In this document: positions 4,461-19,239 of the stretch, in pieces
How positions within the stretch are numbered: the stretch's first letter is position 1
Layout: each line of letters opens with the position of its first letter
Source: a virus
Reading direction: 5' to 3' (one strand)
Virus record (IMG/VR): IMGVR_UViG_3300008517_000092
Coordinates: 1-20,687 of that record
DNA length: 20,687 nucleotides
The notes under the pieces: generated by a model
What the model was told of the DNA's origin: nothing
Database searches by the model: none
Seen by the model: the letters and a program-made list of their open reading frames with translations, nothing else
Position numbers and translations under genes: made by a program

Positions 4461-5078
4461 TTATTCCACCTTAACCAATATCATTTCTTTAAAATATTTT
4501 TCCCAAAAATCTCTATTAAAATTAACCTTGGTATTACAAGACCTGCAAAGTGCTATTAGATTATTTGGTAAACAATTCTTTTTGATATAGTCAATATGAT
4601 GTATAGTGAGTTTAGAAATATTCTCACATTCGGGCATACCGCATAATTGACATTTGTAACCATCTCTTTGTCTAATTAATTCTTTTAATTGTTTATTAAA
4701 TTCAGGAGAATAAGGTTCAAAAGAAATTCCACCTTGCCAACTTGAATTATTTTCACCTATAGCCGATTTACTCATCTTTAATTTTGTTTCTTTATTATGG
4801 TGAGTTCCTGTAAATCTTTTAATTATCATTAATATAAATTCTTCCGAACGTTGTTTACCTCTGTTAGCTTTGCTTATTTTTTCTTTAGTCTTTTCTGAGC
4901 AATATTTTCCTTTATTCCAAGGGATTTGTCCTTTTCTAAATTCAGTCCCTTGTGAAACATGTTTACCTAAATGAAATTCACTCATTTTTTTTAAAGTTTC
5001 GTCATTTAAATTTTCTCTCAAGTGGGCAGTTCTATTTTTTTCTATAGTTTCTTCTGTATGACGGCTTCCTTTTCTCAT
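4461..5078 (-). CDS. HNH homing endonuclease with NUMOD3 motifs, 205 aa
   Basis: This is a probable free-standing homing endonuclease. The N-terminal two thirds holds short basic NUMOD3-like DNA-binding motifs (SEKTKEKISKANRGKQRSEE at about 61-80; HNKETKLKMSKSAIG at about 95-109). The C-terminal third is an HNH domain: RQRDGYKCQLCG (zinc-binding C143 and C146), LTIHHID (H160, H161, D163), PNNLIALCRSC (N172/N173, C178, C181) and a final N near 186. It sits between the GT2 gene and the tape measure with no spare bases: its ATG directly follows the GT2 stop, and the tape-measure ATG begins one base after its own stop. Both neighbours appear complete, so it is neither inside an intron nor an intein. 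It likely cuts HNH-less relatives at this junction to spread. Confidence 0.9.
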   Translation of the reverse strand: MRKGSRHTEETIEKNRTAHLRENLNDETLKKMSEFHLGKHVSQGTEFRKGQIPWNKGKYCSEKTKEKISKANRGKQRSEEFILMIIKRFTGTHHNKETKLKMSKSAIGENNSSWQGGISFEPYSPEFNKQLKELIRQRDGYKCQLCGMPECENISKLTIHHIDYIKKNCLPNNLIALCRSCNTKVNFNRDFWEKYFKEMILVKVE

Positions 5079-6269
5079 TTATCCTTCCTTATCAATCTTT
5101 TTTTTTGTCTTCTCGGTAGCATTCCAGATATCCCATCTAATTGGCAACCTATTGTTATTCAATCCAATCCCCATATTCATATATTCTCCGGCTTTTTCGC
5201 TATTTCCCTTTTCGAATTCATAAATGGCTAACCAATTGAGAATTTCGGGGAGTACGATTTTCGAATTGTTAATTTGTAATCGTTCATATAAACTTCCCTT
5301 TGTCTTGCAAATATCGAGTGCTGTATCAAAATAATTTTTTGCCTTTTCATTGTCCCTGCCGGTCCAGTAATTTCCCAGCATCAAATATATTTGAGAGATC
5401 CTGCTCGAATAATGGCAGGCCTCTCTTTCTATCCTTTCCGCATTCTCTATGTCGTCTTTGGCCAAGTATGCCCCCACCAACTTGACAAAAACTTCAAGAA
5501 AGGAAGTCCAACCCTCATTATAATTCGCCTTTCTCATATTCTTGATCCATAATCCGCCATGGAGAATCGTATTTTCAAAATCTTTCATGACATAATATGT
5601 TTTGACTAAATGTGTCAAATTATGCAGATTATCCGGATGTTCCTTGAACTCTTTTTGGAGCATCGGCAGGCTGCGAGCCATTTTATTATCAAATAATTTT
5701 TCACCCTTTCCCCCCTGAAATAGATAGCCATAATGGTTAAAGATTATATTGGGAGCAAAAAGATATGGAGTTTTTATTTTAGGTTTATTATGAACAGACT
5801 GTTCATAGTGAAAATTATTATCATTTTTGAATATTCTTGGCTGTAGCATTTCCGAATATTGCTTTAAATCACTTACATAATAGTTATATAGCTTCACAAA
5901 TACCGTGGGCTGCTTATATTCCGGGTTCAGAATTATATCCTCTAAGGGATATAGGCACCTCTGGAGCAATTCCTCATCAGCATCGATTATCATAATCCTA
6001 TCCCCGATAGCCTTTCCGATCCCATAATTGCGGGCCTTGCTGAAATCCCAAGGGATAAATTCTTTTTTGTATATCTTGTCGGTAAACTTTTTGGCAATAT
6101 TTATCGTCCTGTCCGTTGATCCGGTATCCACTATAACCAGTTCGGTAAGTGGTTTTAATGTCTCATCATCCTTCATTTGAATAATAGGCAAGAAGGAATC
6201 CAAACATCTTTGTAAATTCGCTTCCTCATTTTTGACTATCATACATATTGATAATTTTGGTTTTTCCAT
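5079..6269 (-). CDS. GT2-family glycosyltransferase with C-terminal TPR-like region, 396 aa
   Basis: The N-terminus is a GT-A fold family 2 glycosyltransferase: LSICMIVKNEEANLQRCL at residues 6-23, ELVIVDTGSTDRT at 43-55, FSKARNYG at 76-83, and the metal/nucleotide-sugar DxD motif IDADEE (D96, D98). Residues about 205-390 form helical TPR-like pairs (for example ENAERIEREACHYSS, NEKAKNYFDTALDICK, LNWLAIYEFEKGNSEKAGEY). GT2-TPR proteins are known among bacterial protein and glycan glycosyltransferases; the SunS S-glycosyltransferase is a related architecture. No membrane segment is seen, so it should act in the cytoplasm. The start has a good SD (AAGGAGA, 6 bases upstream). It lies just downstream of a small virion-like protein and the giant Ser/Thr/Tyr-rich repeat protein. 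Virion glycosylation is an inference; donor and acceptor are unknown. Confidence 0.9.
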   Translation of the reverse strand: MEKPKLSICMIVKNEEANLQRCLDSFLPIIQMKDDETLKPLTELVIVDTGSTDRTINIAKKFTDKIYKKEFIPWDFSKARNYGIGKAIGDRIMIIDADEELLQRCLYPLEDIILNPEYKQPTVFVKLYNYYVSDLKQYSEMLQPRIFKNDNNFHYEQSVHNKPKIKTPYLFAPNIIFNHYGYLFQGGKGEKLFDNKMARSLPMLQKEFKEHPDNLHNLTHLVKTYYVMKDFENTILHGGLWIKNMRKANYNEGWTSFLEVFVKLVGAYLAKDDIENAERIEREACHYSSRISQIYLMLGNYWTGRDNEKAKNYFDTALDICKTKGSLYERLQINNSKIVLPEILNWLAIYEFEKGNSEKAGEYMNMGIGLNNNRLPIRWDIWNATEKTKKKIDKEG

Positions 6270-6284
6270 TATTTCTCCTTTTTA

Positions 6285-6572
6285 TTAATCTAAATTATCT
6301 AAAACTTCAAAATCAACCATTTCTCCATATCCCTTCCAGGCTGCTGATTCTATGTATAGTTGAATATGCCATTTTCCCACGGCATCTAAATCGCCTGCTT
6401 TCGTGGTATAAGATACACTGTCTGTCCCCTCTGCTGTAGCAGTCCATTCTCCCTTTACCCTCGTTGCGCCAGGTTTAGAATATAATATTTTCCAGACAGT
6501 AGCTGTTGATATATTACATCCAGCGTCTAATATAATTTTCGTTCCAATATCATTTTTATATATTTTACTCAT
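6285..6572 (-). CDS. Small beta-rich phage virion-associated protein, 95 aa
   Basis: This short protein alternates hydrophobic and polar residues in a way typical of a beta sandwich: YKNDIGTKIILDAG at the start, ATVWKILYSKPGA, GEWTA, then GDLDAVGKWHIQLYIES and a final FEVLDNLD. Similar small domains occur in phage tail and baseplate-associated proteins (BppU/Ig-like N-terminal modules). That resemblance is from memory of motif style only. Its ATG overlaps the stop of the repeat protein by one base (TAATG), with GGAG upstream, so the two are translationally coupled and probably act together. The exact role is unknown. Confidence 0.72.
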   Translation of the reverse strand: MSKIYKNDIGTKIILDAGCNISTATVWKILYSKPGATRVKGEWTATAEGTDSVSYTTKAGDLDAVGKWHIQLYIESAAWKGYGEMVDFEVLDNLD

Positions 6573-9500
6573 TAATCTGTCTCCAAATCAATTTTAGAAT
6601 TAAACGTAATCTCTTTCGTTATATTCGAATTAAGCGTAACCCCTCTTGTAATTCCCGAATCTAACGAAATTTCTTTTGTTATTATCGAATTTAACGCAAG
6701 CTCTTTTGTTATGTCAGAATTTAATGTAATCTCTTTTGTTATATAAGAAAGGAAAGTTATGGTTTCTTTAAATCGAAAGGCAGTTCCACTAAATGTAAAC
6801 TGTCCACTACTTACATACTCATAATCTACGCCTGCAATTTCGTAAGTACATTCGGCTTCACCCGAATAGGTTAATTCCCCACTGCTAATATAGGCAAAAC
6901 CAATTATTGTGGTCGCAATCCCTGAATAAATGAACGATCCACTACCAGTATAAGGATAAATAAAGGTAAAGGAATAAGTTGCTTCTCCTGAATAATTTAG
7001 ACTTCCATTTGTTATATAAGCAAATTCTAATTCACAAGTTCCTTCACCGCTAAAAGTAAAAGTTCCGTCTGCTAAATAAGCAAAGTTTATGGTGTAGGAC
7101 TGTATCGCAGTCCCCGAATATGAAAAACTTCCACTTGCCGTATAGCTAAAACCTAAGCTGTATAATCCCGCTCCACTAAAATTAAACGAACCGCTTCCTA
7201 CATAAGTAAAGCCAACTGTTATTGTTGCCTCTCCTGAATAGGTTAATTCTCCACTTCCCGTATATAAATAATAACGGGAATGTATTTGAGTGGCAGTTCC
7301 ATTAAAGGTAAGTGAACCACTTCCCACATATTCAAAATCCGCAATTGTTAGATAACTATATTCAGCAGCACCTGAATATATAAGCTCTCCACTGCTTATA
7401 TAAGCAAATCCAATTATTGTTATGGCAGTTCCTGAATAGGCAAAATCTCCGCTTGCTGTGTAAGTAAAATCTGTTATATAGGATTGAGTTGCTGTTCCAA
7501 AATATGCTAACGAGCCACTTCCTGTATAAGCTAATCCTAACTCATAAGAACCTGCTCCACCAAAGGCAAAACTTCCGCTTGTTATAGTAGAAAACTCAAT
7601 AGTTGTGATTGCATTACCTGAATAATTGAACGTTCCGCTTGTTGTATATAGAAAGTCAGTTTTATAAGATACTACTGCACTGCCAGAGTAAATTAAAGAA
7701 CCGCTTCCTGTATAGGCAAATCCCAAAACGCAAGTTGCACTACCCGAAAAGGCTAAACTTCCGCTACCTGTATAACTAAATCCTAAGGTGTATAATCCCG
7801 CTCCACTGTAATTAAATGAACCACTACCTGTATATTCAAAATCAGCACCAGCAATGGTATATTCACATACTGCTGCACCCGAATAAATAAAATCCCCGCT
7901 TGCTATATAGCCAAAAGAGTAAGTATGAGATTGAGTCGCTTCTCCAGAATAATTGAAATTTCCACTACCCACACAATAAAACCCTAAACTATAAGCACCT
8001 ATCCCACTATAATTAAAAGAGCCTGTTCCTACCGTGATAAAATTCTTACTATGAGTTTGGATTGCAGTTCCACTAAAGACACAAGATCCACTACCTATTT
8101 GGGAGAATCCAACAGAATAAGTTGCTTCTCCGCTAAATGTCAAAGAACCGTCTGCTACATAACTAAAATTGCGTGTATAAGATTGCTCGGCAACTCCTGA
8201 ATAGGCAAGTTCCCCGCTTCCTGTAAACAAGAAATCGCATAGATAGGAAAAGATTGCTTCTCCTGAATATATAAGTTCACCAACCGCTGTAGATAAAAAA
8301 TCACGTGTATAAGTTACAACTGCCTCGCCAGAATATGCTAATGAACCACTGCCCACAAAAGAAAGACCAACAATTATTACCGCACTACCAGAAAAGGCTA
8401 AACTTCCACTACCTGCAGTTAGATAATCTTTTGAATATACATAAACAGCACTGCCAGAATAAGATAACTGACCGCTTGCTATAATTAGATAATTTCTTGT
8501 ATGAGATTGAGTGGCAGTTCCTGAATAAATAAGCTCTCCAGTCCCTGTATATTCAAACTCACCCCCTGCACTTGCTGCCTCAATAATCACCGTAGCCGCT
8601 GCCCAATCTCTCGATGTCGATGTAAATACTGCTGTGCCTGTGTTGCCTGCGCCTTCCAATGTTCCACTACTTAAAAAATCCGTTTCATATACTCTTGCGA
8701 GAAGGCTGCCACTTTCGTCAGGATTATAAAATTTTATTCTCATTGCTGTTACTGTTTGAGTACCAGCAGGAATTTCTTTTTCTACCCATTCTATGTCTGC
8801 AAAAGCACCTTCATAAATATTATGCCAATCATCAGAATAATAGACATCTACACTTATCTGTGATAGATATATTGCACTATAATCTGCCATAAATCTTATT
8901 TTATTACAACTTATAGCAGAAATAGTAAGTGTTAAATAAGGAGACCAACCAAGATTCGGTATACCATAATATAGAGTGGAGGTTTCAGTATCTTCATCAT
9001 AAGCCCTGTATTCAGTATTCCAGCCTGTTTCATCAAATCCAGTAGGTGATACCCATACATCAAAAGTGGTCTTATCTCCCCCAGCACCACCGATATCATT
9101 AGCTTGAATAGCGTTAAATCTTTCTTCTAATTGTGCAGGAGTTTCATAATCATTATCATCACTGTCAATACCCATAACCTGTAAGACTAAACTGCCTGCC
9201 GTTAAATCGGTAAATTCTACTGAAGGTGCAGTCGGAGTTGCACTGTCTCCTGTTGCAATGCCCGAATTGTGAATAGGTGTAAGTGCCTTAACGCCCTTAT
9301 AACATATTATTTCACCTATCCAATCTTCACTATCACCATTCCAAGTATATTCCGTTGTTTGGTTTGCGTCTCCTGCCTCTGCCCATTTCCAAGCTATATA
9401 TAAAGTGGTTGCTCCATTGGCTATGTTATTAAAGACCATATTCCAATCGCCATAAGAACCAGTTTCTAATATTGCAACATCGTCATCTTTGCTTATGTAA

Positions 9501-9604
9501 GCAATGAGTAAGTCACCAACAGATGTTCCCACTGGTGCAGTCATTAAGATACTTGTGCCACCATCTGTCTTAAATTGAGATATTCCTACAAATTCTACAG
9601 CCAT
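6572..9604 (-). CDS. Giant Gly/Ser/Tyr-rich repeat protein, probable tail fibre or virion adhesin, 1010 aa
   Basis: Three regions are visible. Residues 1 to about 340 are non-repetitive: a beta-rich virion-like domain (VGTSVGDLLIAYISKDDD, IICYKGVKALTPIHN) followed by a segment like a discoidin/carbohydrate-binding fold (ISCNKIRFMADYSAIYLSQ and TVTAMRIKFYNPDESGSLLA). Residues about 350-947 are 28 imperfect repeats with core FxYxGSGSLxYSGxAT. Residues 951-1010 are 10-residue LNSxITKEIx repeats. There is no signal peptide or membrane anchor. The start has SD AGGTGAG about 9 bases upstream and directly follows a 44-aa ORF. Its location between tail chaperones and tape measure suggests a tail-associated protein: fibre, tube decoration or receptor-binding protein. 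It could also be a structural spacer without receptor function. I do not recognise a named family for the repeats. Confidence 0.85.
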   Translation of the reverse strand: MAVEFVGISQFKTDGGTSILMTAPVGTSVGDLLIAYISKDDDVAILETGSYGDWNMVFNNIANGATTLYIAWKWAEAGDANQTTEYTWNGDSEDWIGEIICYKGVKALTPIHNSGIATGDSATPTAPSVEFTDLTAGSLVLQVMGIDSDDNDYETPAQLEERFNAIQANDIGGAGGDKTTFDVWVSPTGFDETGWNTEYRAYDEDTETSTLYYGIPNLGWSPYLTLTISAISCNKIRFMADYSAIYLSQISVDVYYSDDWHNIYEGAFADIEWVEKEIPAGTQTVTAMRIKFYNPDESGSLLARVYETDFLSSGTLEGAGNTGTAVFTSTSRDWAAATVIIEAASAGGEFEYTGTGELIYSGTATQSHTRNYLIIASGQLSYSGSAVYVYSKDYLTAGSGSLAFSGSAVIIVGLSFVGSGSLAYSGEAVVTYTRDFLSTAVGELIYSGEAIFSYLCDFLFTGSGELAYSGVAEQSYTRNFSYVADGSLTFSGEATYSVGFSQIGSGSCVFSGTAIQTHSKNFITVGTGSFNYSGIGAYSLGFYCVGSGNFNYSGEATQSHTYSFGYIASGDFIYSGAAVCEYTIAGADFEYTGSGSFNYSGAGLYTLGFSYTGSGSLAFSGSATCVLGFAYTGSGSLIYSGSAVVSYKTDFLYTTSGTFNYSGNAITTIEFSTITSGSFAFGGAGSYELGLAYTGSGSLAYFGTATQSYITDFTYTASGDFAYSGTAITIIGFAYISSGELIYSGAAEYSYLTIADFEYVGSGSLTFNGTATQIHSRYYLYTGSGELTYSGEATITVGFTYVGSGSFNFSGAGLYSLGFSYTASGSFSYSGTAIQSYTINFAYLADGTFTFSGEGTCELEFAYITNGSLNYSGEATYSFTFIYPYTGSGSFIYSGIATTIIGFAYISSGELTYSGEAECTYEIAGVDYEYVSSGQFTFSGTAFRFKETITFLSYITKEITLNSDITKELALNSIITKEISLDSGITRGVTLNSNITKEITFNSKIDLETD
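6575..6754 (-). repeat. 30-bp coding repeats (LNSxITKEIx) at the 3' end of the repeat-protein gene
   Basis: Six consecutive 10-residue units encode residues 951-1010: FLSYITKEIT, LNSDITKELA, LNSIITKEIS, LDSGITRGVT, LNSNITKEIT and a degenerate FNSKIDLETD. The 30-bp period is visible in the DNA without spacers. Regular alternation of hydrophobic residues could build a beta-solenoid-type stack or an oligomerisation tail. It differs in sequence and period from the larger repeats upstream. Confidence 0.88.
6760..8557 (-). repeat. Array of 28 coding repeats of 20-25 residues (60-75 bp)
   Basis: I count 28 copies around the core GSGS(L/F)xYSGxA. Most are 20 residues long, ending in phrases such as TLG, VLG or IIG before the next FxY. 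A second class is about 22 residues, ending in phrases such as SHTRN, SYTRD or SYKTD. Four are longer (about 23-25 residues), including YTIAGAD and YEIAGVD. The Gly-Ser-Gly turn, aromatic residue and small-residue pattern are strongly kept, while DNA-level identity is moderate. This suggests a repetitive beta structure under protein-level selection. Confidence 0.92.
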
Positions 9605-12386: not shown

Positions 12387-13142
12387 TTAATAACTCCATT
12401 TATAGCTATAACATTTTACTGGACATTCTCCAATATAATTTAAGAACTGTTTGGTAGAAGAAGTTGAAATTCCTATTACATTGTTACCAACTTGCCTTAT
12501 GGCTTTGAAACCCAATTTGATTAATTGTATTACTAACCATTCGACATCTGAAATCGGGAATCCGCAAGTGCATAACACAATATATGGTCTGCATCTTTTC
12601 TTATGGACTAAACAACCATCCCCAAGCATTTCTTGCCTCAAAACTAATGATGTTAACTTTAAATCTCGTGGTATTATTTTATGTCCATTGGGATACCATC
12701 TATTTCTAATCGGTAATAATTCTTCATAGCATAAAGAATCATAATGATAAGAATAATTATTCCACCTTTTGTCTTTTTCTTCGTGAATTTTCCCAGCTTG
12801 TTTTATACCAAAAGAATTTAAGATATCCGAAATATATTGAATATATTCTAGATGTTTTGAACTATATGCAAAATTTGCTGAATATTTAGATTGTGAACGT
12901 AAATTCCCATCGCCTAATAATTCCCCATCAATCCATTGTTTTGCTTTTTCTGATAGATTACAATGGTTACCTCTTGCTAAATTTTGTGCTTCACTTTTGG
13001 AACGAATTGAAATATTAAGTTTCTTTAACCAATAATATATAGTTGTTTTATCATAATTGAACAATTTGGCAATTTGGAAAATAGACAATTCCTCTTCTAA
13101 ATATTTTTGATTTAGCCAATTTTTATTTTTGTAATTTTTCAT
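12387..13142 (-). CDS. LAGLIDADG homing endonuclease with N-terminal helix-turn-helix, 251 aa
   Basis: Residues about 16-46 form a helix-turn-helix-like domain (IFQIAKLFNYDKTTIYYWLK). Two LAGLIDADG motifs follow: WIDGELLGDGNL at 70-81 and VLRQEMLGDGCL at about 167-178, with expected catalytic acidic residues near D78 and D175. Between them, NGHKIIPRDLKLTSL is typical of single-chain LAGLIDADG enzymes. It should be a cytoplasmic DNA endonuclease that copies itself into uninterrupted relatives. It sits between two complete genes, six bases after the stopper-like gene and one base before the gp10-like start, so it is free-standing. Start: ATG with AAGG in the previous gene's last codons. Confidence 0.92.
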   Translation of the reverse strand: MKNYKNKNWLNQKYLEEELSIFQIAKLFNYDKTTIYYWLKKLNISIRSKSEAQNLARGNHCNLSEKAKQWIDGELLGDGNLRSQSKYSANFAYSSKHLEYIQYISDILNSFGIKQAGKIHEEKDKRWNNYSYHYDSLCYEELLPIRNRWYPNGHKIIPRDLKLTSLVLRQEMLGDGCLVHKKRCRPYIVLCTCGFPISDVEWLVIQLIKLGFKAIRQVGNNVIGISTSSTKQFLNYIGECPVKCYSYKWSY

Positions 13143-13744: not shown

Positions 13745-14875
13745 TTAGCTTGCTATACCCCATGAACCATCAGTCGCAACTTCAGTGTCAAGGGAAAGCA
13801 CCCTGTCTATTGTGGGCCAGGATGGAAATGCGTTCAGTTCGCTTTTAGTATATTCGGCCACAGGATCGACATCAGACCATTTAGAGATCAGGATAGGTCC
13901 CTTCTTGGCTTGGACTACTTGCTTAGGAGGATTCGTCTCTTCCGCTATTGGCCCGTGAAGCATATCCCCGCACTTCAAATCTTCGAGAAAAGTTACAAAT
14001 CTATCTTCTTTGTCAGCGTTAAGCCATGGATCAACATGTACAAGTGTATGATCTGCATTTTCATAACTTATTCTGGTGTCGATTATGACTATTGTTGGAT
14101 ATCCTTCTGATTTTAGAGCCTCATTTGCCAATTCTAATGTGGGAGCTCTCTGTTTTCTTGTCCCGCCATAAATAGCATAGGGCATTACGAAATCCTTGAC
14201 CTGGGCTGAAATTCTAAAGGCCAGCCATTTAGAACGGTTCATTAGCATATATCTGGGTGCTATTCCAAGATCCCGGGCCGCCTCCATAACATTTTCTATG
14301 TCAGTAATGGGCTCTGAAGCGGCATGAAGGGCTACTTCCCAATAAGTGCCAACTGCCCCCTTCACACCTAATTTATTATCAGTAGGAAGCCCAAAATCGA
14401 TATCTTCTTCAGTTATTACTCCCCCGACATTTGTGGTCCTAGAAAGGGTTATTGTTCCTTTTGATAAGGCCTGGAAAATAATCCACTCTAACCGGGCATT
14501 TGCACCATCTACACAGTCATCTACATCGCCAAATACAAGGTCAAGTAGAGCCTTCTGTTCTGGTCTCGCCATGGCCTTTAATATATTGTAAGTATTTAGA
14601 TCTGTTTCTGTCATTTTCTTTTTCATTCTAATTGCGGGAATTTCTCCCGATAACTTATCTACAGCCCTTCTGGTTTTTAAAGGTGCACTTGTATCATATG
14701 CAACCACATCGGCAGCCACTCTATGCCCTTTACTCCCGATCAAAGTTTCATAACTCAGAAAGGGAGTCGATTTTAAGGGAAAGAATGTAGGCCAGAATAG
14801 TTTTTTATATACCCGTGCAGTGAGATAGGCCTGCATGGTCTTTTTATTTATTTCTTTCAATAATGAATATTCCAT
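13745..14875 (-). CDS. Major capsid protein, lambda gpE-like (HK97 fold), 376 aa
   Basis: The protein forms the icosahedral shell. Evidence for the lambda-E-type family is the overall layout: an N-terminal segment with KKLFWPTFFPLKST and FLSYETLIGSKGHRVAADVV, the phrase RAVDKLSGEIPAIRMKKKMTE, shown here by its key R/K/E residues, a central helix region with ARLEWIIFQAL and a C-terminal half with DHTLVHVDPWLN and GPILISKWSDVDP. It has no long N-terminal delta domain, consistent with a separate scaffold gene, which is present two genes upstream. An SD-hairpin leader precedes it. Gene order (scaffold, decoration, capsid, connector) agrees. Confidence 0.87.
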   Translation of the reverse strand: MEYSLLKEINKKTMQAYLTARVYKKLFWPTFFPLKSTPFLSYETLIGSKGHRVAADVVAYDTSAPLKTRRAVDKLSGEIPAIRMKKKMTETDLNTYNILKAMARPEQKALLDLVFGDVDDCVDGANARLEWIIFQALSKGTITLSRTTNVGGVITEEDIDFGLPTDNKLGVKGAVGTYWEVALHAASEPITDIENVMEAARDLGIAPRYMLMNRSKWLAFRISAQVKDFVMPYAIYGGTRKQRAPTLELANEALKSEGYPTIVIIDTRISYENADHTLVHVDPWLNADKEDRFVTFLEDLKCGDMLHGPIAEETNPPKQVVQAKKGPILISKWSDVDPVAEYTKSELNAFPSWPTIDRVLSLDTEVATDGSWGIAS

Positions 14876-15539: not shown

Positions 15540-16289
15540 TTATTTTTTCTCTTTAATTTCTTCGCCTTTCTTGATTTCTTCCTCTGACAGTCCCTGGAGA
15601 GCTTCCCCTTTGGGTCCCTTATTTTTTTCTTCCGCAAAACTTTTCGCCAATTCCTCTCCCATAGATCCTGTCGATTCACCTTTCGATGGCTCTTCTCCAT
15701 CTTTAAGTTTCTTATCAATCTCGGCCTGTTTGAAGTCCAGAACTTTGTCCTTCAAATTCTTAACGCTTTCTTCAATGTCCTCGTCTTTCTCGACTGTAAT
15801 ATAAGATAGGAATCCTTCACTTAAATCTGCTTTTTTAAGTGCATCTTTTATCAAAGTCTCCCGCTTTGTCTTAACAGTTGTTCCGCTCAAATCCTTCACC
15901 AAAGTAGTTAATCTCTTAACTTCTTCAGTTAGATCCGATACTTTCTTATCACTTTCACTCATATCTGCCTGTTCTTCCTTCTTCTTTTTTTCAGCTTTTT
16001 CCTTTGTCGCTGCCTCTTCTTTTTCCTTTGCTGATTTTAGATCATGAGTAGTGATGGCCTGCGATACCCTCCGGTCTGTCTCACTCTGCAGGTATTTATT
16101 GAAACTTCCTTCAAGCCCAGCCTCTTTTATTGCCTCGATAAGCTGTTCTGATGTAAGTTCAATTTTCCCTTTTAATTTTTCAATTTCCGCATCAATTTGA
16201 CTTTCTTCAGTCACCTTAATCTTTTCTGCTAACGCCTCATCAAGCCCTGCTTTCTTCAGTGCTTTTTTAATTTGAGTTGTTAAATCCAT
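15540..16289 (-). CDS. Head scaffold protein with repeated helical motif, 249 aa
   Basis: The protein is very rich in Lys and Glu and mostly helical, as scaffolds are; they occupy the procapsid interior and leave before DNA packaging. A long charged coiled-coil (about 85-135) sits between homologous motifs: LTTQIKKALKKAGLDEALAE at the start and ETLIKDALKKADLSEGFLSY near 144-163, with partial IEAIKEAGLEGSFNKYL at 51-67. The C-terminus is Gly/Glu/Lys-rich and likely disordered. It has a strong SD (AAGGAGA, about 9 bases) and precedes the decoration and capsid genes. The lambda-E-type capsid lacking a delta domain needs such a protein. Confidence 0.85.
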   Translation of the reverse strand: MDLTTQIKKALKKAGLDEALAEKIKVTEESQIDAEIEKLKGKIELTSEQLIEAIKEAGLEGSFNKYLQSETDRRVSQAITTHDLKSAKEKEEAATKEKAEKKKKEEQADMSESDKKVSDLTEEVKRLTTLVKDLSGTTVKTKRETLIKDALKKADLSEGFLSYITVEKDEDIEESVKNLKDKVLDFKQAEIDKKLKDGEEPSKGESTGSMGEELAKSFAEEKNKGPKGEALQGLSEEEIKKGEEIKEKK

Positions 16290-16312: not shown

Positions 16313-16501
16313 TTATTTTAAATTTACTTTTAAAGCCGAATTTCTCAATACTTCAGATATATTGCTCTGTTTCTTTCTTACTTCCTTTTCTACTTCTGAC
16401 ATCAGTTTCTTATCTTTCCTGATTTCCACAGCCTTAATCAAAGTATCTACTGCGTTGGCAATTTCCCATTTTTTCTGTCTTTCTTTTTCTGTTTCCGGCA
16501 T
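16313..16501 (-). CDS. Small charged phage protein, 62 aa
   Basis: The protein begins MPETEKERQKKWEIANAVDT and is one or two charged helices with LIKAVEIRKDKKLMSEVEKE. I recall similar short proteins next to phage scaffold genes, but no function is known to me. Its SD is weak (GGAAG about 12 bases from ATG), so expression may be low. It is the first gene after the promoter-terminator region. No domain is visible. Confidence 0.62.
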   Translation of the reverse strand: MPETEKERQKKWEIANAVDTLIKAVEIRKDKKLMSEVEKEVRKKQSNISEVLRNSALKVNLK

Positions 16502-16536
16502 TTATTTATACACTTCCGATTTGATTATTCTCGCAT

Positions 16537-16587
16537 AAAAAAAGAGAGCCATTCGAAAAGTTTTTAAACTTCCTCAAATGGCTCTCT
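16537..16587 (-). terminator. Intrinsic terminator between the glycosyltransferase cassette and the scaffold unit
   Basis: On the minus strand an 11-bp perfect stem (AGAGAGCCATT / AATGGCTCTCT, arms 16587-16577 and 16553-16543) with further pairing in its 23-base interior is followed by a run of seven T. This is a textbook Rho-independent terminator for leftward transcription. The T run is only on this side, so it is one-directional. It ends the sugar-gene transcript and would also block most transcription starting from the promoter just upstream. Confidence 0.9.
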
Positions 16588-16614
16588 GGATTGGAGCTCT
16601 ATTTATTTATTTTT

Positions 16615-16642
16615 ATTATAACATTTTATTTAATTTTTGCAA
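16615..16642 (-). promoter_or_regulatory. Candidate extended -10 sigma70-type promoter at the end of the sugar cassette
   Basis: On the minus strand a perfect TATAAT (16620-16615) is preceded by TG one base away (TGTTATAAT), an extended -10. A TTGCAA (16642-16637) lies 16 bases upstream, matching the -35 consensus at four of six positions. The -35 is in the last codons of the methyltransferase-glycosyltransferase gene. Transcription would start near 16605-16609 and meet the terminator within about 70 bases. AT-rich DNA makes TATAAT common, but the combined elements and location are suggestive. Confidence 0.5.
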
Positions 16643-18261
16643 ATTTCTTTGTATTTTCTAAAATTATTCATAAATTCTGTCCCCTGGCTAATCCCATAAT
16701 TTTTTATAGCCTGGCATGTTATTCTGTTCTCCAATTCCTTTTCGTTTACTTTAAATATTTTATTCACTTCTGTAAAGCAATAGGCCGTCTGGATGGGAAT
16801 ATCCTTTATCCTGTCTTTGATCTGCCTCGATGCTGATGTTTCGCTATGCTCATATCCCCCATAGGTATAATAGATGGGTATGATATTTTTTATATATCCG
16901 GAGAATACCATTATATCCAACAGTAAGGTATCGGGGGCAACATTCATTCTTTTTATCCTAATTTTCTCATAGAGCATATCCGATTCGTTATAGGCCTTTA
17001 GTAGATTGCTTTTCTTTATAATAGTATTACTAAGTGATATTTTCCCAGAAAGAGTAAATAATTCCGATATGATATGATCATAAATCGATTTTAGATATCG
17101 ATGGTACCAGATATCCCCCGTAAATTTGCCATTTTTCATTAATGCACATGAATTCGACAGGTGGGTATTTTCAGGACAGTTCTTTAAGTCCCGCATAATC
17201 TTCCTGATACATCCCGGGAATATCAAATCATCGATGTCGAGAAAAAAGATATAATCATTGCTTGCCTTCTTCAAACCCTCATATCGTGCCTTATGTTCAC
17301 CCGAATTAATTTTGAGATTAATTAACTGGGAATTGGGTAAACTACGTAATTTCTCCTGCAGCAATATCTTTGTCCTATCGATTGAGCAATCATTCACATA
17401 GATTATTTCTAGGTCCGGATAACTCACTTTCCATAAATTTTTAATTGATCTTCCAATATATTCCTCCCCATTATAAACAGGAATGATAATTGATACGCCC
17501 TCTTTAGGAATTTTTTCCTCAAGTTTGTTTCTTGCCGAACCGATAGCGATTAGCCAACTGCCCACATTATCGTCTCCATTAAATGATCTGGCCAGATTCC
17601 GCGATAATTGCAAGGTTATAAGTTCGGGATTTATTCGCTTCAAATAATATGCCTCTGAGCCCAACCCTATGATCTGCTCATGAAGCATAGACAAACCAGC
17701 TTCTTTGAATAGATCCGATAATGTTAAAAAGTCCCTCTCGAATCCGTATTCCCACGTTCCCTCCTTCTGTGAATATGATTTTGATAGTTTGTATGTATCC
17801 GAACCGCCATAAGGCACCCCCACTATGATGTACTTGCCCAATTTGCCCATTTCCTTAAGCATTTCTATTATCTTTAAATCGTCAAAATGCTCTAAGAGCC
17901 CCATACTGAAAACCATATCATAATAATTGCGTCTCGATTCATTTTCTCCAAAATCAGACAAATCTATTTCTCGAAATATACAATTATTTATCTGGTAATC
18001 ATTAGCAATCCTATTCGCCAATTTAACGCTCTCCGGATCTTTATCTATTCCCTCACATTTAGCACCCCTGAGAGCCAATTCAATACAGTATTGACCGGTG
18101 CCAGTCCCCACATCAAGAATAGACTTGTTTTTCAAATCAAAATATTTCAGTAGAATACCTATGAATTCAGATCTGAGCAACATGCCACCCGGTTCGTTCA
18201 TAATAGAAACAGAATCTATGTTCTGATAGCTCTTCCAAAGAGAATTCCATACCTTGCTCAT
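16630..18261 (-). CDS. Fused SAM methyltransferase and GT2 glycosyltransferase, 543 aa
   Basis: Residues about 1-230 are a class I SAM-dependent methyltransferase: motif I SILDVGTGTGQYCIELAL at 47-64, acidic GIDKDPESVKLAN at 71-83, and MVFSMGLLEHFDDL at about 116-129, as in small-molecule or sugar methyltransferases. Residues about 253-370 are a GT2 domain: GVSIIIPVYNGEEYIGRSI, EIIYVNDCSIDRT and DYIFFLDIDDLIFPG with the DxD motif (D342, D344). The C-terminal 170 residues are not recognised. Both activities in one chain suggest transfer and capping (methylation) of the same glycan, as on phage or host surface sugars; this is inferred. SD AAGGAGATATA, five bases before ATG, is formed by the last codons of the previous gene, which abuts it. 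Confidence 0.9.
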   Translation of the reverse strand: MSKVWNSLWKSYQNIDSVSIMNEPGGMLLRSEFIGILLKYFDLKNKSILDVGTGTGQYCIELALRGAKCEGIDKDPESVKLANRIANDYQINNCIFREIDLSDFGENESRRNYYDMVFSMGLLEHFDDLKIIEMLKEMGKLGKYIIVGVPYGGSDTYKLSKSYSQKEGTWEYGFERDFLTLSDLFKEAGLSMLHEQIIGLGSEAYYLKRINPELITLQLSRNLARSFNGDDNVGSWLIAIGSARNKLEEKIPKEGVSIIIPVYNGEEYIGRSIKNLWKVSYPDLEIIYVNDCSIDRTKILLQEKLRSLPNSQLINLKINSGEHKARYEGLKKASNDYIFFLDIDDLIFPGCIRKIMRDLKNCPENTHLSNSCALMKNGKFTGDIWYHRYLKSIYDHIISELFTLSGKISLSNTIIKKSNLLKAYNESDMLYEKIRIKRMNVAPDTLLLDIMVFSGYIKNIIPIYYTYGGYEHSETSASRQIKDRIKDIPIQTAYCFTEVNKIFKVNEKELENRITCQAIKNYGISQGTEFMNNFRKYKEICKN

Positions 18262-19239
18262 TTATATCTCCTTTATAATTTCCTTAGTTTGTTTTAGCTG
18301 ATTCTTAAATGTCCAGCCTTTGTCTATAATCCATTGCCTATAAGCGCTTGAATAATAATCTTGAGATTTTATTATATTAACCGCTCCCTCAATCGTATTA
18401 AATATATCACCCTTTCGGTATAATTCTTTGGCCCCCCTGAAATTATGGATTACCGGTTTAATTCCCCTGGCCATGGCCTCGAAAATACCATACCCAAAAC
18501 TTTCATGTATCGATGTATGAAGCAGATAATTTTTATCTTTCCAGAAGCCCCCCATGTCATCAATCCAACCGTAGAATTTTACATTATCCCGTAGTCCCAT
18601 TTCCTTGATCATATATTCCAGGTATATTTTATATCTCAAATCCTGGAATGAACCTGCTATATGAAGTCTATATTGTGGATCAACGATAAAACCTCCATAC
18701 ATAAAACCTTTATGATTAATATTATGAATCCCTTTAATTAACTTATTTAATATTTGCAAGGCCATTTGGGGATTTTTCTTATAGTTAATGAATCCAACCC
18801 AGGCTATGTTATGCCCAGGCTGCCGCTTCCTCCATGGAGTAGAGTCTAGATCAATTCCATTAGAAACGATTTCTGTTTTAACTTTATTCTCGATATCGGG
18901 TATAAATTCTTTCAGGATTTCCTTGATATGGGGAGCTACCAGAATCAATTTATCTACTATAAGCCAATTGATCTGTCTAGGAAAATCCGTAAATACTTCA
19001 TAACTATGAAGTCTGATTATAACCTTTTTGCCCTTGATCCCCTCGTAATTCGTTCCTATAATGGCCGATTGATTGCACCATTCCAGCCAGACAATATCAG
19101 CCCAGTCGATTGCATTATATACATCCTGCTGGGCTCTGATTATGAACTTCCTGACGATATAATCGGCTGACAATCCCTCGATTATCGGGTCTATGAATTG
19201 GTCAAGTCCTGCCAGGCATATAAAACCTATCTTTTTCAT
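18262..19239 (-). CDS. GT4-type glycosyltransferase, 325 aa
   Basis: The C-terminal half has the GT-B nucleotide-sugar site: VSNGIDLD at 125-132, RLHIAGSFQDL, NVKFYGWIDDM, then TSIHESFGYGIFEAMARGIKPV (E246, G249 and E254 are the key residues) typical of family 4. The N-terminal half is an alpha/beta fold (IVWLEWCNQSA, VIIRLHSYEVFTDFP, LILVAPHIKEIL). At 325 residues it is slightly short, and no membrane segment is seen. The strong SD (AAGGAGG, about 9 bases) suggests good expression. It is translated immediately before the MT-GT2 gene, so the two likely act in sequence. The acceptor is unknown. Confidence 0.9.
   Translation of the reverse strand: MKKIGFICLAGLDQFIDPIIEGLSADYIVRKFIIRAQQDVYNAIDWADIVWLEWCNQSAIIGTNYEGIKGKKVIIRLHSYEVFTDFPRQINWLIVDKLILVAPHIKEILKEFIPDIENKVKTEIVSNGIDLDSTPWRKRQPGHNIAWVGFINYKKNPQMALQILNKLIKGIHNINHKGFMYGGFIVDPQYRLHIAGSFQDLRYKIYLEYMIKEMGLRDNVKFYGWIDDMGGFWKDKNYLLHTSIHESFGYGIFEAMARGIKPVIHNFRGAKELYRKGDIFNTIEGAVNIIKSQDYYSSAYRQWIIDKGWTFKNQLKQTKEIIKEI

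Follow-up and report, generated by a model that had tools for sequence, protein, structure and literature searches.

The window analysed here is a viral stretch of 20,687 nucleotides, and its minus strand carries the promoter, leader and terminator described below together with all relevant genes. Upstream of these elements lay a methyltransferase-glycosyltransferase gene (16630–18261), and the glycosyltransferase cassette directly upstream spanned 16630–19239. The first gene downstream (16313–16501) coded for 62 amino acids and had no family match. It was followed by a scaffold-like gene (15540–16289; phrog_172 head scaffolding, E = 1e-4) and by the gene of the major head protein (13745–14875; phrog_29), which lies within the capsid-tail block that the segment would control. 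Two homing-endonuclease-like genes, recognised by eye from their translations, were present among the tail and head genes (4461–5078 and 12387–13142). Positions 6572–9604 coded for a protein of 1010 amino acids, consisting mostly of repeated GSGxxxYSGxA units.

The promoter showed the −35 hexamer TTGCAA (16637–16642, minus strand) and, at 16-bp spacing, an extended −10 (TGTTATAAT, 16615–16623, minus strand) in which TGT precedes TATAAT (16620–16615). An alternative −35, TTTGCA at 16638–16643 with 17-bp spacing, fitted equally well. The −35 is placed inside the last codons of the gene at 16630–18261 and the −10 just past its stop; RNA start is expected near 16608. The initial annotation had described an extended −10 with TTGCAA at this spacing, overlapping the gene end, and the site was confirmed: it outscored dinucleotide-shuffled versions of the leader in which it lies (p = 0.015). 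Promoter-like sites in the AT-rich DNA of the window were at background level (37 found versus 41.6 expected in the 10.7 kb scanned). Therefore, chance had to be excluded through comparison among relatives, most of which carried a similar −35/−10 pair.

The intrinsic terminator (16536–16587, minus strand) was composed of a 45-nt hairpin (16587–16543) with a GC-rich stem, immediately followed by a U7 tract (16542–16536). The RNA (73 nt) gave a folding energy of −25.9 kcal/mol (z = −5.5), and 0 of 200 shuffles folded as well. These values, and the presence of the hairpin in 28 relatives, bear out the earlier claim of a strong terminator about 70 bases on, before the scaffold genes. A simple terminator scan did not pick up the window terminator, probably because of the stem and loop limits of the scan. 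The distance from the terminator to the next start codon was 36 nt, which leaves scant space for another promoter; hence, late transcription passes this point, arrives from upstream through it, or starts inside the downstream genes.

The leader contained box 1 (AGAGCTCC, 16593–16600), the linker AATCC (16588–16592) and box 2 (AGAGAGCC, 16580–16587), all on the minus strand. Box 2 served at the same time as the 5′ arm of the terminator and paired with GGCUCUCU ahead of the U-tract. The leader box AGAGCUCC and this terminator arm together gave GAGNNCC-N6-GAGNNCC; GAGCTCC and GAGAGCC at 16599–16580 were the sole such tandem pair within the window. The leader RNA alone folded into a small hairpin of −4.5 kcal/mol (16581–16597, minus strand), the predicted antiterminator, in which G16597-C-U-C16594 paired with G16584-A-G-C16581. 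This hairpin and the terminator were mutually exclusive, with box 2 common to both, and forcing the leader hairpin stripped the terminator of the GC-rich base beside the U-tract. A rival fold between AGAGCT and the terminator had been proposed before. The leader segment was correctly placed (16600–16595), but its conserved partner was the 5′ arm (GCUC:GAGC) and not the 3′ arm.

The tandem cores resembled the RNA site of the Com zinc finger. The SELEX study of Nowacka et al. (2019) on Com of H. sputorum, a relative of Mu Com, gave the consensus NGAGNNCC(N)2-3GAGNNCCNN (PMC6483171). The selected RNAs had a variable stem of 3–4 nt between the cores and an invariant C–G loop-closing pair, and the zinc finger bound CC(N)2-3GAG in the loop (PMC6483171). 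Mu Com is a translational activator of mom (PMC6483171). The GCUC:GAGC stem in the window, closed by a C–G pair, agreed with the short variable stem of a Com-type site. The CC..GAG spacing departed from the SELEX result, being 6 nt in the window (linker plus the first A of box 2) compared with 2–3 nt. Across the related elements this spacing was 2–3 nt in 56 of 128, 4–7 nt in most others and 2–7 nt in nearly all. The window element may therefore work like a Com site, with its membership in the Com-type class being provisional.

The central pairs between box 1 and box 2 were kept in 112 of 129 elements, compared with a mean of 57 and a maximum of 72 for shuffles; these counts, like all element counts, include related sequences. 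The observed combinations were CU/AG, CG/CG, CA/UG, UG/CG, CU/GG and others, and about 1 in 8 elements broke a hairpin pair. Two other explanations of the boxes were tried and rejected. Box 1 could pair with the 3′ arm of the terminator in only 39/129 elements, versus 112/129 for the 5′ arm, and a direct repeat did not account for the boxes, whose centres were identical in only 36/129.

For the comparison among relatives, 67 loci were chosen by a major head protein search, blind to the motif, and 28 of them, which had a scaffold gene and enough upstream DNA, were used for the hairpin. A hairpin of the same build was found in all 28; its distance to the scaffold gene ranged from 42 to 1605 nt, and mostly it stood directly ahead of that gene or of the 62-aa gene. 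Upstream of it stood a promoter and then a box AGAG(C/T)NCC just ahead of the hairpin. The promoter, leader and terminator reported earlier in the late operon are thus present and conserved as a triad, and the comparison across related phages that had been proposed gave the promoter in most relatives. Invariant in the 26 aligned sequences were AGAG..C of box 1, AGAG.GCC of the 5′ arm (box 2), GG...T of the 3′ arm and the T run, while the hairpin interior varied. The promoter model reached p ≤ 0.05 against dinucleotide shuffles in 17/26 homologous loci, with p-values that ignore relatedness, and a convincing promoter was absent in 9/26. In a wider set, which likewise ignores relatedness, the same threshold was reached in 38/80 AT-rich and 13/36 other elements. 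The element was absent from more distant capsid relatives (46–56% identity).

The pattern GAGNNCC-N2..8-GAGNNCC occurred 32 times on the late strand and 0 times on the other strand in 587 kb of capsid-homologous loci; the reversed motif gave 1 and 0 in the same DNA. Most relatives had not kept the gene upstream of the proposed gate at this position. Its methyltransferase-glycosyltransferase fusion was seen in few of them (L017, L018, L024 and L041), so the slot upstream of the gate is a variable accessory site.

Seven of the longer relatives showed 3–4 matches to the tandem pattern each, all on the late strand and each copy ahead of a block of late genes. Four genomes were scanned for terminators, and the element hairpins were the strong late-strand terminators in them, with one more comparable hairpin in G003. 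The G003 copies preceded the ParB-like/terminase/portal, the scaffold-capsid-tail and the tail spike/endolysin blocks. All three copies of G005 carried one variant, AGAGTGCC/AGAGCGCC, which points to a factor of that phage acting in trans. The middle copy of G002 had a duplicated tandem site with a small hairpin between (L008 about 6246–6298; G002:C1:22310–22362). Pattern scans returned at least 100 viral stretches and 19 bacterial-genome stretches, some of these 19 by chance. Behind the element, 13 of 16 diverse loci had a terminase, portal, scaffold, head protease or major head protein gene. The genome search at order level around one host covered two genomes.

The clade of the window also encoded a candidate regulator, a protein of 59–82 aa with the pattern R-C-x2-C ... 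I-K-C ... C, upstream of the terminase-proximal element. The distance was 0 to about 2.7 kb in G001, G002, G003, G005, G011, G013 and G014; the G005 member was divergent and was assigned by eye from the alignment. The G003 com lay 12 kb upstream of the element homologous to that of the window, and no com gene was found within the 20.7-kb window itself. These clade proteins matched phrog_6417, a ‘translational regulator’, with E of about 1e-6 to 1e-8, and scored under the cut-off of Pfam Com (PF10122). Their profile matched a profile of gut-phage Com proteins at 96.9%, with no sequences shared between the two. They were without a match in the annotated phage collection. Structure prediction with AlphaFold gave the Com-like protein five strands at a pLDDT of 82, and a PDB comparison returned nothing meaningful, which was anticipated for a chain of 60 residues.

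Starting from the motif, a Com-like gene was found within 3 kb upstream in 28 of 78 elements, whereas positions drawn at random from these loci gave 8.7%; with three elements to one com, this value would be expected to reach about 1/3 at most. Com ORFs have no conserved stretch for an alignment-based search, so a degenerate DNA pattern was used to collect them and gave 92 distinct ORFs. Starting from these ORFs, a tandem site was present between the zinc ribbon and 600 nt past the gene in 42/92, versus 2 for the reversed motif; about half of the 92 had no strict site nearby. The second core was the arm of an intrinsic terminator in 18 of the 42 sites, a number for which shuffling the downstream DNA gave a mean of 0.6 and at most 3. 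Central pairing was found in 25 of the Com-first sites versus 9.4 for shuffles. Gut-type phages often had com ending at the element (L187, L191, L201, L209, L215, L216, L218, L222, L223 and L252), and the gut-phage record MT836094 showed, in order, Com, the site, a terminator of −32 kcal/mol and a head-type gene cluster. The sites lacking a terminator included com-methyltransferase pairs, e.g., in Escherichia phage Chuche.

We consider it likely, and hold with good confidence, that this segment gates transcription of the scaffold-capsid-tail genes and is opened by Com-like antitermination. The gate reading had been raised in the initial annotation, and the conserved layout, the position ahead of late blocks and the covarying hairpin make it the best supported one at the level of sequence. 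RNA would begin near 16608 and terminate about 70 nt later by default, because the 5′ arm pairs with the 3′ arm ahead of the U-tract; a short default RNA is expected. Before the 3′ arm is made, box 1 and box 2 would form the small Com-type hairpin. The phage Com-like zinc ribbon, presumably produced earlier in infection, would bind this nascent hairpin and hold box 2 out of the terminator stem, so that RNA polymerase could continue into the late genes. Without Com, the terminator is far stronger than the leader hairpin (−25.9 versus −4.5). As the terminator loses its GC-rich base while the leader hairpin is kept in place, a protein trapping this hairpin early should give read-through. With one gate per late block, a single small protein would switch on the late genes together. 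We infer that the window phage has its own Com, which would bind here and prevent termination, and that the Com-like protein of the clade would open all late blocks.

Four alternatives to Com-like antitermination were weighed. Because Com is a known translational activator (PMC6483171), it might bind the leader and act post-transcriptionally in the manner of Mu mom control, by changing how the first gene is translated or how stable its RNA is. We regard this as very unlikely, although it is the least unlikely of the four. A second class of sites overlaps a G-rich Shine–Dalgarno stretch and not a terminator, which speaks for it. At the window site, by contrast, the second core is a terminator arm located 79 nt before the next start codon (16580 to 16501), and the competing fold ends in a U-tract without a ribosome site. 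The site did not fold against the start region as in Mu mom; its competing partner was the 3′ arm of the terminator. The second class was seen just past com in L273, L278, L281, L286, L308, L309 and L313 as GAGAGCC-N3..4-GAGCNCC. Behind it came a G-rich Shine–Dalgarno stretch (GGGGGTGA), able to pair with the second core, and then the start codon of a tape-measure-like protein (MADG...). At these sites the same switch probably acts on translation.

The next explanation, somewhat harder to accept, is that the terminator merely insulates the upstream glycosyltransferase genes, with the late genes using read-through and the promoter-like sequence being there by chance. The variation of the upstream genes between relatives, in which promoter, box 1 and hairpin stay, argues against it, even though accessory cassettes often end in a terminator and promoter-like sites in AT-rich DNA were not above background. 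Box 1 is nearly invariant though a terminator needs none, and unrelated phages have the same element ahead of their terminase, portal and head genes. The earlier suggestion of a terminator for the upstream genes only leaves this conserved leader box, the promoter and the copies before unrelated late genes unexplained. Less probable still is a small RNA of about 70 nt acting in trans, with the terminator as its 3′ end. The compact promoter-leader-terminator anatomy would suit such an RNA, as would the short RNA expected as default product, but the copies stand directly ahead of late operons, with scant promoter space behind the window copy. In addition, conservation does not extend to the hairpin interior, the covariation of box 1 is with box 2 in cis, and the motif equals a protein-binding site. 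We give the lowest probability to lambdoid processive antitermination (Q, put or nut/boxA) loaded at the leader. A gate before late genes would fit it, and so would a boxA-like TCTTTGA(A/C)AATTAAATA which several relatives carry 20–40 nt ahead of box 1, close to where the RNA should begin (L007, L018, L019, L024, L025, L035, L036 and L037). Neither the window nor its closest relatives had this stretch, and the boxA/nut reading was rejected because the stretch is confined to a subset of relatives; in its carriers it might add Nus-factor control. No Rfam family matched the element at its gathering score; the Rfam scans, of the window at a permissive threshold and of ten element loci at the gathering threshold, returned chance-level hits and tRNAs only. 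The leader sequence thus lends no support to the lambdoid comparison made earlier: neither put-like nor nut-like parts turned up there, and each operon has a leader copy of its own instead of one long-range modification.

The proposed Com-like antitermination at this gate can be compared with three known systems. The likeness to the Mu Com/mom leader includes a small CxxC...CxxC zinc ribbon, GAGNNCC-like cores with CC(N)nGAG in the loop, positive control via RNA refolding and a com gene close upstream of the target. The differences are that the competing structure here is an intrinsic terminator, that the targets are terminase, portal, capsid and lysis genes, that there are several sites per genome, and that no mom gene was seen at the element. 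LicT/SacY-RAT systems involve a protein-dependent choice between antiterminator and terminator folds. They share with the gate an upstream antiterminator hairpin that uses bases of the terminator 5′ arm, so that the two folds exclude each other, whereas protein and RNA motif are unrelated and the gate would be a phage late-gene timer and not a sugar sensor. The lambda pR′-tR′ region has a promoter, a short leader and a terminator just before the late genes and makes a short RNA by default, and the gate has the same arrangement. Lambda Q, however, is loaded from a DNA site, and the RNA polymerase that it modifies stays so over kilobases, whereas here each late block is preceded by a separate RNA site. 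By analogy, the gate would work like hairpin control of the LicT/RAT type and serve the same end as lambda Q; it is neither of these, since its recognisable parts are those of Com.

Late-gene control is, to our knowledge, understood in only a minority of the phages that infect sediment and gut bacteria. With less assurance than for the window gate, we think it probable that Com proteins are widespread phage late-gene antiterminators, with tandem GAGNNCC leaders as a trans-controlled late regulon and with the terminator and ribosome-site versions as forms of one RNA switch. A literature search for the motif letters, and for Com together with antitermination, returned the Com RNA-binding study (PMC6483171) as the only relevant paper, and among the papers searched none joined Com with termination control. 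If the proposal is true, a compact rule, a tandem AGAGNNCC leader before a terminator, would predict late operons and their regulator from sequence alone. It would also give a role to Com-like genes in phages whose neighbouring genes are structural and not mom. An RNA motif known in vitro would be joined to more than a hundred natural sites, and the question would come down to a single small protein and a leader of 75 nt.

Upstream of the elements in L224, L206 and L257 were small ORFs whose strand pattern resembles that of Com but in which the four cysteines are missing (e.g., VREPYTGKLLFRFDPERDLIEIQDRGQKTIIDL). These ORFs could possibly be zinc-less Com proteins.
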